Positions 1-26,570 of a stretch of 64,000 nt of DNA are shown here, piece by piece. Both the position numbers and the translations under genes were made by a program. The DNA lies in NCBI GenBank assembly GCA_009838915.1, contig VXQT01000003.1, forward strand, positions 1 through 64,000, in the 5' to 3' direction. The notes under the pieces were generated by a model, which saw only the letters and a list, made by a program, of their open reading frames with translations, was not told the DNA's origin and searched no databases. Within the stretch, counting starts at the first letter, position 1, and each line of letters starts with the position of its first letter. The DNA is from Chloroflexota bacterium (GTDB lineage: Bacteria > Chloroflexota > Dehalococcoidia > Bin125).

Positions 1-144
<144 letters not shown>

Positions 145-21329: not shown

Positions 21330-21821
21330 TCAGTCGCCGACTGCCAGATCGTAGGGCAGCGGTGAGCCGAGGTCGCCGTCTCGCCAATGCGTGAGCGAGT
21401 GGGCGAGGTCGCCGAGTTCGGATGCGGATTGACCCTCGGTGGCGCGCAGGATCTGCTCGGCGGACGCGATCTCCGCGCCGTTGAAGCCGAACAGGTCCGC
21501 GCTGGCGAGCGCCATCGGGCGGTACTGCGTGTAGCCGCCCAGGTCGGACGGCTGGATCACGATGCTGCCGTCGTCGAGCAGCGGGTCCAGGTAGAGCTCA
21601 AACTTGACCAGCCAGGGTCCGTGCTCGGCGACGACATAATCGGCCCCGGTGATCGACTCGCCGTGGCGGCGGTAGTGCAGGAAGTCGCTCAGGCAGAGCA
21701 GCGTGTTCAACTGGCTGGTTCCGAACGAGCGGGCCGTGATCCGGCGTTCGCAGAGATAGATGATCAGCTCGCGCAGCTTGGCGTCGACGAGGCCGGAGGT
21801 ATACCTGCTGATGGTGGTCAC
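21330..21821 (-). CDS. Panacea-domain (DUF4065/SocA-like) protein, antitoxin-like
   Basis: A 163-residue protein. The central block QLNTLLCLSDFLHYRRHGES, then ITGADYVVAEHGPWLVKFEL, matches the Panacea/SocA-like domain, known as an antitoxin domain paired with very different toxin partners. It starts with GTG overlapping the stop of the upstream gene (GTGA), so the two are almost certainly co-translated. The final 60 residues (AEIASAEQILRATEGQSASE) are helical. In an antitoxin role its partner would be the upstream CaiB-like fragment; this is inferred from family behaviour and overlap only. Confidence 0.72.
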   Translation of the reverse strand: MTTISRYTSGLVDAKLRELIIYLCERRITARSFGTSQLNTLLCLSDFLHYRRHGESITGADYVVAEHGPWLVKFELYLDPLLDDGSIVIQPSDLGGYTQYRPMALASADLFGFNGAEIASAEQILRATEGQSASELGDLAHSLTHWRDGDLGSPLPYDLAVGD

Positions 21822-23840: not shown

Positions 23841-26570
23841 CTAGGTTCCAAAGCGCCGATTCGTCACGGATGGTTCCTCTGAGAGGGCCTGGCGGATTTT
23901 GGCGACCCATTCGGGGTCAAGGTCTTGAGCTGCGATTACGGCGTCGTCCAACTGCTTGCGCACGGGATCTTCGTTCATCTGTGGGAGTGGGAGCAGGACT
24001 TCGTCCTGGAGTCGGTCGTAGGTCGCGGCGAGCGCATCTCGGGCGTCGTTGCCGAGCGCGGCGAAGTCGGGGACCCGCAGGGAGCGCAGGGTGTCGAGCG
24101 AGAACTGCGGGTAAGACGGCTTGCGGTTGTCGCGGCCTCCGAGCAGGCTGAGGATGCCGACGGTGGAGTTGAGATAGACGGCTAGCGCCTTCATCGTAGA
24201 TAGGTTTCCGTCGTGTGTGCGGCACGGTGTCCATAGCGAACCCAATACGGCGTAATCGAGCAGTACTGCTCCGACTCGCGCTGAAGGGAGCCAAAGCCGG
24301 TTCGCGATCAGAAGTCGGCTTCGCTGCTCCCAATAGCGATCCGCCATGCTCCGTTTGCCCTCCTTCTGTTCCAAGTGTGAGTCGGGTTTGGCCCTCATCG
24401 ACTGGGTGATGTCCGTTTTGTGAAACCACAGTGCCTGGCGACCTGACGAAGTCGGCAAGTCAGATCGACTGAATGCCTCGTGAGGACGACGCCGGTGCGG
24501 TCCGATTTCTGCGATATCCGACAGAGTCAAAAGAGGGGTTGCGGCGTCCGCCAGGGAGCGGAAGGCGTCGGTGAGAAACGGCGACAGGAAATTGACGGCA
24601 TTCCAATCGCCGATCCCCATTCGCACCGCGTCGACGAGCTGCTCGGTCAAGTCGCTGCTCGCTCCGCCCCGCATCTGGCTCAGGACATTGAGTGCTTCAA
24701 TCGGTGTGCTCGGATTCCGAACAAGATTGACCACACGGGTTGGCGGCTTTGGAGTATTGGAGTCGGATCGCCGGCAGACGATCAGGACCTCTCCTATATC
24801 TGTGTTCTCAGAGAAGTAGATGCGCTGCGGATCATGAGAGCTAACGATTGTGTCGATGTGAAAGCGATCTGCGAGATACTTCCGGATTCCAGCCCCAGAT
24901 GGTGCAGTGGGGATCATGCCAGGCATCACCATCGCAATGCTCCCACTCTTGGCCTTCAACAGGTGCTCGGCAAGAACGGCAAACGCGCCGCTACTCGCGG
25001 TCATATCGACAACACTGCCCGCCTCGAGTGAGTCGAAGAGTCTGCGTTCGCGCTCGCCCATCGATTTCTTCTCATTGGGCCCGAGCTGGTTGTGTCGCAA
25101 GCGATCCACTGTAAACGGCGGATTCATGATTACCAGGTCCATTGCCGGCGGCTGTTCTGGTGGTTGGGCAGCACTGTCGTCGTCTACCTGTGAGGACAGT
25201 TGCGGCCAGTCGATCAGGCGGGCCTGGCCTTCGAGGAACTCCAGCGAGCCGAGGTAGGGGACCCCGCCATAGACGCCGAGATAGGTTCGGTAGATGCGCA
25301 TCTTGTTGAACTGCGTCCGAGGCGAGAGCATGCCCAAAGCGCTGGCGGCCATGTGCGTGGCGGTGAGGTTGATGTCATAGCCCCAGAGCACATCTTCAAC
25401 CAGGCAAAGGGCTAATGCCGCTTCGTCATCTTCATCGTGCGAAGTTGGGGGGGGGGTAGCAGTCGAGCGCAACGCGCGAATACGGTCGGCGGCGGCCATG
25501 AGCAAGGTGCCTGTGCCGCAGGCGGGATCGCAGATGCGGAGTTTGGCGACGGCGTCGACATCGGACCAGTCGCAGTCTTCTTCGCGGATCGCGAGCGCGG
25601 CCAGCAGGGTCGCGGCAGCGGTGGAGGTGTAGAAGGAGCCGTCGTAGCGGGCGGTGTCGAGGACGCGGTGGAAGACGCGGCCCAGGAGGTCGTGACGCAT
25701 ACCGTGCAGACTGGAGGCGATGCCCTCGATCACTTTCGCCAGCTGGAAGATCACCAGCGCCGAATCCGGCGTTGTCGGAAGGGCGAAGAGCGCGACACGG
25801 GCAGTCTCGAAGACCGGCTTGTAGTCGACCTTGAGGATCGCGGCCCATGCGTCGCCGAAACGCTGGGGCGTCCCCTGGGGCTCGAGTGCGCACTCGGCGG
25901 CGCTCAGTGGCGGCCAGTCGCCGGGGTGTTCCTCAGGGCGAAGCGGCGGCAAGTGCTCGTGGACGCGGTGATGAAAGAGCATCGCCATCGCCACGACCAG
26001 CATTCCGCGCTTGGCGGCGGTGAAGTATCCGTCGTCCTGGGCTGTTTGCTTGCCTCGCGGCAGGTCCAGCTTCTGGGCAAGCGCCATGCGCACCGGAGTT
26101 CCGAGTCCCTGTACTGCGGCATCGAGCCCCTCGGAGAGCATCTGTGCGGCCCTGTCTGCGTCGGCAACAGAGTTGGGCGCCTGACGTACGGCCTCGGCGA
26201 GCTGCCGTACCGAGCCGCCGGACCAGTCGCCGCTTGGCGCGGGCTTGCCGGAGGACTCAGCGGTTCGCGGCAACCATTGCAGTTCAGCGTCGCCGAGGCT
26301 GTCGACGGTCGCGCCAGCCGGATAGCAGACGGCGAATGCAAGCGTGGTCAAGCCCTGCTTGAAACGGGCGTCGGCGTCTTTGATCGCCTGGGCTTGCTTG
26401 TCGAACCCGGTCTCGGCTTCGAGCACCACGCGGAGGCCGTCCACGTCGGCGAGGATGTCGAGTCGGCGGTTGCCCTGCTTGACCTCGGCCTCGGCGGGGA
26501 CACCGGCGTCGGTGAGCAGTTTGGACAGTTCGCCGTTGAGCAGGTGTTCGAGGTCGTGCTTGGTTGGCAT
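23841..26570 (-). CDS. Single-chain N6-adenine DNA methyltransferase, restriction-modification type (Type IIG/I-like)
   Basis: A 909-residue protein. Residues ~1-80 (RRLDILADVDGLRVVLEAET) look like a PD-(D/E)xK-type nuclease domain, but the expected Lys after the acidic pair is absent. A helical region follows, then the N6-methylase domain: RYDGSFYTSTAAATLLAALA, CDPACGTGTLLMAAADR (motif I), LVIMNPPFTVDRLR (motif IV NPPF). The C-terminal ~300 residues (RVVNLVRN, SRLLIANRLWLPSA, SLDTLRSLRVPDFAAL) resemble a target-recognition domain. Ten consecutive C (minus strand) at 25447-25456 encode PPP shortly after motif I. No separate HsdR or HsdS genes are nearby. Confidence 0.8.
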   Translation of the reverse strand: MPTKHDLEHLLNGELSKLLTDAGVPAEAEVKQGNRRLDILADVDGLRVVLEAETGFDKQAQAIKDADARFKQGLTTLAFAVCYPAGATVDSLGDAELQWLPRTAESSGKPAPSGDWSGGSVRQLAEAVRQAPNSVADADRAAQMLSEGLDAAVQGLGTPVRMALAQKLDLPRGKQTAQDDGYFTAAKRGMLVVAMAMLFHHRVHEHLPPLRPEEHPGDWPPLSAAECALEPQGTPQRFGDAWAAILKVDYKPVFETARVALFALPTTPDSALVIFQLAKVIEGIASSLHGMRHDLLGRVFHRVLDTARYDGSFYTSTAAATLLAALAIREEDCDWSDVDAVAKLRICDPACGTGTLLMAAADRIRALRSTATPPPTSHDEDDEAALALCLVEDVLWGYDINLTATHMAASALGMLSPRTQFNKMRIYRTYLGVYGGVPYLGSLEFLEGQARLIDWPQLSSQVDDDSAAQPPEQPPAMDLVIMNPPFTVDRLRHNQLGPNEKKSMGERERRLFDSLEAGSVVDMTASSGAFAVLAEHLLKAKSGSIAMVMPGMIPTAPSGAGIRKYLADRFHIDTIVSSHDPQRIYFSENTDIGEVLIVCRRSDSNTPKPPTRVVNLVRNPSTPIEALNVLSQMRGGASSDLTEQLVDAVRMGIGDWNAVNFLSPFLTDAFRSLADAATPLLTLSDIAEIGPHRRRPHEAFSRSDLPTSSGRQALWFHKTDITQSMRAKPDSHLEQKEGKRSMADRYWEQRSRLLIANRLWLPSARVGAVLLDYAVLGSLWTPCRTHDGNLSTMKALAVYLNSTVGILSLLGGRDNRKPSYPQFSLDTLRSLRVPDFAALGNDARDALAATYDRLQDEVLLPLPQMNEDPVRKQLDDAVIAAQDLDPEWVAKIRQALSEEPSVTNRRFGT
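25447..25456 (-). repeat. Ten-base C tract inside the methylase gene
   Basis: The coding strand has ten successive C, read as Pro codons in the linker after methylase motif I. It is the longest homopolymer outside the edge artefact and of the kind that slips during replication. A change of one base would truncate the protein before the NPPF motif. Confidence 0.75.

Follow-up and report, generated by a model that had tools for sequence, protein, structure and literature searches.

Can a run of ten cytosines within a restriction-modification gene of an uncultured Dehalococcoidia genus act as an on-off switch? The window, a stretch of 64,000 nucleotides from a Chloroflexota assembly (contig VXQT01000003.1), carries such a run (C10) on its minus strand, and we put the probability at about two in three that it is a slippage-prone contingency tract in a single-chain Type IIG-like restriction-modification gene.

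Results

Architecture of the encoded protein

The open reading frame (23841–26570, minus strand) starts with ATG and encodes 909 amino acids, in which Pfam detects N6_Mtase (42.3 bits; cut-off 20.4). In the full-length structural model (mean pLDDT 69), an N-terminal domain of the order alpha-beta-beta-beta-alpha-beta is followed by a helical region, then by the methyltransferase core and finally by a C-terminal region; the model is poor in part of the catalytic core, and the residues that follow the tract belong to that part. Its top PDB match by Foldseek was the Type IIG enzyme BpuSI (E 4.3e-14; Z 16.0, 593 residues, rmsd 6.4, ~12–13% identity), and CamA, M.BseCI, BrxX/PglX and DrdV ranked close to it. 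The sequence DPACGTG (residues 348–354; 25509–25529, minus strand), whose core is invariant in alignment A1, we take to be motif I, the S-adenosylmethionine site; NPPF (residues 483–486; 25113–25124, minus strand), found in the sequence and the alignment, is presumably motif IV of an N6-adenine methyltransferase. The C-terminal part, approximately residues 640–909 (23844–24653, minus strand), is a probable target-recognition region, as judged from the fold matches that cover it. Together, the models, the fold matches and the two motifs place a nuclease, a gamma-class methyltransferase and a recognition region on one chain, which is the Type IIG/IIC layout. The product is thus built, as modelled, like a single-chain Type IIG-like restriction-modification enzyme with a PD-(D/E)XK domain, a gamma-class adenine methyltransferase and a recognition region.

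Among profile searches, PADLOC REase_MTase_IIG gave a best E of 1.5e-4 with part of the profile covered, and all NCBIfam models scored far below their cut-offs for the 909-residue protein. Assignment to BREX PglX was rejected (22.5 bits against a cut-off of 900; none of the six scanned neighbouring ORFs is a BREX gene), although the model shows fold similarity to BrxX. Type I HsdM, the top sequence match among solved structures with an E of only 0.018, was also set aside.

The N-terminal nuclease domain

The putative PD-(D/E)XK-type domain (residues 1–103; 26262–26570, minus strand; order a-b-b-b-a-b) reached a mean pLDDT of 90.6 when modelled alone. Its Foldseek matches were mostly PD-(D/E)XK nucleases such as Hjc, Cas4-like proteins and HincII, a fold class that we take from their names; most had E values of 0.001–0.05, and the first match, AF1548, was the sole one with E below 0.001. 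The acidic pair E51-A-E53 (26412–26420, minus strand) lies downstream of D38 and puts Glu at the usual Lys position. D38 and E51 were invariant in all 16 aligned N-termini, and the third signature position was Glu in 10 of 10 members of the subfamily, some belonging to the genus itself and others to further families of the class. L021 also has Glu there, whereas 5 of 5 members of a sister subfamily have Lys. Lysine is likewise replaced by E in BamHI, by Q in BglII and NotI, and by N in MspI (PMC4081073). Since E-x-E is kept across the subfamily and these enzymes also replace the lysine, its absence here points to an ancestral difference and not to fresh decay.

The preliminary description had noted the missing lysine, correctly, and had suggested on that ground that the protein may act in modification only. 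That suggestion fared less well, given E-x-E in 10 of 10 subfamily members, Glu in active BamHI and a domain that is predicted to fold. That the protein is a lone methyltransferase whose nuclease domain has degenerated, so that any switching would touch methylation only, is possible but doubtful: the usual Lys position indeed lacks Lys, and none of the six scanned neighbouring ORFs is an annotated restriction partner, but the conservation of E-x-E (10/10) and of D38 and E51 (16/16), the Glu of BamHI and the confident fold of the domain in the model argue against decay. Prediction gives the nuclease domain a PD-(D/E)XK fold with confidence, and the protein may cut DNA.

The C10 tract and the effect of frame shifts

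The tract (25447–25456, minus strand; G10 on the plus strand) occupies codons 372–375, in a loop between predicted helices at residues 353–371 and 380–394, where model confidence is low. It covers coding nucleotides 1115–1124, begins in codon 372 within the context A-T-P-P-P-T, and sits 18 residues past DPACGTG and ~108 residues ahead of NPPF. The preliminary description had placed a C10 run in the linker just after motif I, and the run is there. Setting the tract length to 9, 11, 8 or 12 in silico gave products of 385, 379, 378 and 386 amino acids, respectively. A gain or loss of one base in this simple in-frame repeat therefore truncates the product before NPPF and the recognition region, which bears out the earlier proposal that a shift would cause this loss.

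If the tract is a switch, replication slippage would change the length of the run in living populations. Ten cytosines, or any length equal to 1 modulo 3 (one third of lengths), would give the full enzyme; other lengths would give a chain of 378–386 residues that keeps the nuclease domain and loses NPPF and the recognition region. Methylation and targeted cleavage would then be switched off together, because the nuclease and the methyltransferase rely on one recognition region, and the switch would be safe for the cell and might be favoured by selection.

Homologues of the gene

We compared ten distinct loci of at least ~42% identity (L009, L034, L010/L035, L011, L012, L013, L115, L116, L117, L118; L038 aligns as L009 and was taken as the same gene), with relatives sampled at one genome per species. 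The linker is kept in all of these except L010/L035, and none of the nine informative homologues has a C or G run of at least 7 in it; the C10 tract is therefore lineage-specific. The preliminary description had counted absence of the tract from close relatives as one half of a case against switching, the other half being uniform tract length in deep reads; on the first half, no close homologue carries it (0/9). L118, the homologue in G107, has a frameshift with no C or G tract at it.

The same-genus homologue in G006 (54% identity) contains (ACAG)16 near residue 677, and the 226 residues that remain are read in a different frame; among 15 genus genomes, a CAGA pattern of 23 bases turned up at this place only. 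C10 here and (ACAG)16 in G006 give two members of one subfamily two unlike simple repeats in two places.

This is an accessory gene undergoing turnover. Residues 221–378 are gone from the G001 copy, which has lost the linker and contains TAG; the syntenic sites in G002 and G009 keep the flanking genes and only a C-terminal remnant of the gene; and four paralogues, more distant ones, occur in the window's own genome. Near the accessory site, the window encodes a Panacea (SocA-like antitoxin) domain protein (21330–21821) without an obvious toxin. A small ORF at L097 2998–3240 (G001, contig C10:51867–52106) joins ~26 residues from the start of this methyltransferase to ~54 from its end, and is either an internal-deletion remnant or a small gene.

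The linker differs in sequence and length among the aligned homologues, and a C run there could therefore be neutral. C10 would then be a chance run in the variable linker of an active enzyme, its slips unselected, and the gene subject to ordinary gain and loss of restriction genes. The absence of the tract from every homologue and the dispensability of the gene (remnants in G002 and G009, the deleted, TAG-containing copy in G001) fit this explanation, which we consider unlikely in view of the higher-order base statistics and of the other genus genes described below.

Chance expectation and assembly reliability

Outside the contig start, C or G runs other than C10 reach at most 7 in the window. 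With Markov models of orders 1–5 fitted to the window, the tract left out, the expected numbers of C/G runs of at least 10 per 2.87-Mb genome were 6.35, 0.60, 0.27, 1.27 and 4.75. The window's genome has 45 such runs, mostly at contig ends or beside N10 gaps, and six that are clean and interior, C10 included. The first-order expectation speaks for a neutral run, whereas orders 2–4 predict 0.27–1.27 and order 5 predicts 4.75 against the six observed. Because the expectation ranges from 0.27 to 6.35 with model order, tract length alone is suggestive but not decisive.

Where C/G runs fall at contig ends or gaps, the lengths given by this assembly are not to be relied on. At the contig start (window 1–142), four C runs of 18–39 lie beside a CCCCCC/GGGGGG hairpin-like repeat. 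The idea that long C/G runs at contig ends are two-colour sequencing artefacts was dropped: in three of five comparisons, one side of the run proved to be an error-rich copy of the other (L087, z 5.9; L091 against L094, z 5.2; L090, z 6.1), a signal not seen in L080 (z 1.6) or L088 (z −0.2). Error-rich copies past the runs indicate that some contig ends, at the least, coincide with real tracts in which sequencing failed. The gaps in L087, L090 and L091/L094, where gaps or contig ends fall on C/G tracts, are not real sequence; tract lengths at such places are not usable, and the gaps L088 and L079 were left out of interpretation.

The length of C10 might itself be an assembly error, the true sequence having another in-frame length or no long run. 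The error-rich copies (3/5) make this conceivable for runs at contig ends and gaps, but C10 is interior, both its flanks are clean and the frame is intact across it, and a wrong length would be in frame just one time in three; we regard such an error as very improbable.

Further restriction-modification genes with tracts in the genus

Tracts were located in eight genomes and called clean if they were not at a contig end, near an N gap or in a cluster, which gave 53 clean tracts, the window's included. Those left out comprise 20 edge and 15 gap runs in G000, eight cluster runs in G008, and edge runs in G005 (2), G006 (2), G013 (1) and G014 (5); G009 stands outside the clean count (5 of its 33 runs examined: three edge, two gap, none interior), and further edge runs lie outside the tables (four in G006, two in G014, one in G005).

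Eight of the 53 clean tracts lie in, or at most ~200 bp upstream of, restriction-modification genes identified by Pfam: the window gene; Eco57I-like genes in G005 and G006; a C5 methyltransferase in G007; a HEAT plus N6_N4_Mtase gene in G006; and a BsaWI-nuclease/methyltransferase gene in G006 (with two tracts) and in G007. The restriction-modification share of the genome was estimated at 1–3%, from 54 and 109 matches to two methyltransferase families in 15 genomes; at a base rate of 3%, the binomial probability of 8/53 is 1.7e-4, and the excess is weaker with orthologues collapsed (6/51, p 0.004).

Several of these tracts occupy the same position in different species with different lengths. 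The Eco57I/DrmMI-like gene has C10 in frame in G006 and C17 out of frame in G005, and in G001 the contig stops exactly at the base before the tract. At the nuclease/methyltransferase junction of the BsaWI-methyltransferase gene, G006, G007 and G010 have G16, G16 and G12. The HEAT-methyltransferase gene has G14, G9 and G15 in the same three genomes, and an assembly gap falls inside the same tract in the window's own genome; none of these lengths brings the two parts of the gene into a common frame, which leaves a fused single product hypothetical as the ON state. In G007 a C16 run interrupts the C5 methyltransferase, and in the window's genome a tract at a contig end lies upstream of a further methyltransferase gene. 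A tract near a methyltransferase in G012 (L162) was not counted, having no reading frame placement. Beside the window gene, then, two methyltransferase genes of the window's genome have tracts at assembly breaks, one of these tracts inside a HEAT-methyltransferase gene (L080, G000, contig C24:51077–51232; L081, G000, contig C24:67677).

Same-position tracts of other lengths are thus present in relatives for three other restriction-modification genes, against none of nine homologues of the window gene. Such length differences between species, each genome being one snapshot, are of the kind expected of contingency tracts. As several methyltransferase genes of related species have runs of this sort that vary in length, methyltransferase genes of the genus are probably switched at random by slips. 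The same-position tracts and the 16-unit tetranucleotide repeat of the G006 homologue also speak against a neutral origin of C10. The slippage switching proposed in the preliminary description for the methyltransferase gains strength from outside the window, namely from C/G tracts in four other restriction-modification families (Eco57I-like, BsaWI-methyltransferase, HEAT-methyltransferase and C5 methyltransferase), some in frame and some out, and from the tetranucleotide repeat in the homologue.

Tracts at secreted-protein genes

A signal-like hydrophobic stretch in an open frame at most 75 codons after the tract was found for 13 of 52 clean tracts, compared with 67 of 4000 random window positions (binomial 2.8e-12) and none of 15 shorter runs. 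The signal-peptide test was a home-made hydrophobicity rule, which failed to pick up L085 and L133, although both look coding on inspection. In several genomes of the genus, poly-C tracts lie where large genes for secreted proteins begin (L070, L129, L130, L133, L134, L137, L142 and L146), either ahead of the signal sequence or within it. In L129, L130, L134, L137 and L070 the start codon is in frame with both the tract and the signal sequence, whereas L133 and L146 have their upstream ATG in another frame. The secreted-protein genes with poly-C starts probably encode switchable surface proteins. L161, L165 and L175 are similar lipoprotein-like genes (MxxRNYWQRMRR...GCGDDDD) with G/C tracts inside them or 63 bp upstream.

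Discussion

On balance, we favour the wider picture of an uncultured Dehalococcoidia genus with genus-wide poly-C/G contingency loci, Campylobacter-like, in five restriction-modification families and at secreted-protein gene starts, the C10 gene being a young, species-specific member. Counted against switching at C10 are its position in mid-gene, where the secreted-protein tracts stand at gene starts; the nine informative homologues, from relatives with one genome per species, that have no tract, with no length variation seen at the C10 locus itself; and the approximately six such runs per genome expected by chance from first-order base statistics.

A literature search without preprints and with few subscription journals turned up no account of phase variation from Dehalococcoidia or Chloroflexota; in the parts consulted, PMC10924106 and PMC3711429 name Chloroflexota just in passing. 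Phase-variable methyltransferases are known mostly from host-adapted pathogens. If the reading proposed here is true, random on-off switching of several restriction-modification and secreted-protein genes reaches a deep-branching uncultured lineage, and its role in phage defence becomes testable outside infection biology. With a genus-wide set of contingency loci, single cells would differ in methylome and surface coat. Part of the assembly fragmentation would also be explained, since such tracts coincide with several of the contig ends and gaps.

Comparison with known systems

The closest parallel, and the precedent studied best, is cj0031 of Campylobacter jejuni, a phase-variable Type IIG gene in which G9 is ON and G10 is OFF (PMC4889913). 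Both proteins combine a nuclease and an adenine methyltransferase on one chain; both genes have an in-frame mid-gene poly-G/C tract (9–10 in cj0031) at which a one-base shift removes the C-terminal part; and in both cases homologues are often without the tract. As many cj0031 homologues lack it (PMC4889913), its absence from relatives here is no refutation of switching. Similar reasoning on both activities going off together has been given for cj0031 (PMC4889913). The two differ in phylum, in protein length (1243 amino acids in cj0031, 909 here) and in tract position (nt 2573 of 3732 there, nt 1115 of 2730 here), and switching and a methylation motif were measured for cj0031; here, switching is proposed from sequence.

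For the tetranucleotide repeat of the G006 homologue, the parallel is the Haemophilus influenzae mod gene with its AGTC repeats (PMC3711429), likewise a methyltransferase gene, but a different one, in a pathogen and with more than 30 repeat units. For the protein itself it is RM.BpuSI (PDB 3s1s), with an N-terminal nuclease, a central gamma methyltransferase and a C-terminal specificity domain (PMC4081073). The passages of that source describing BpuSI mention no tract, and identity to it is low (~12–13%); the likeness is one of layout and fold, the 909-residue protein having the same three parts in the same order.
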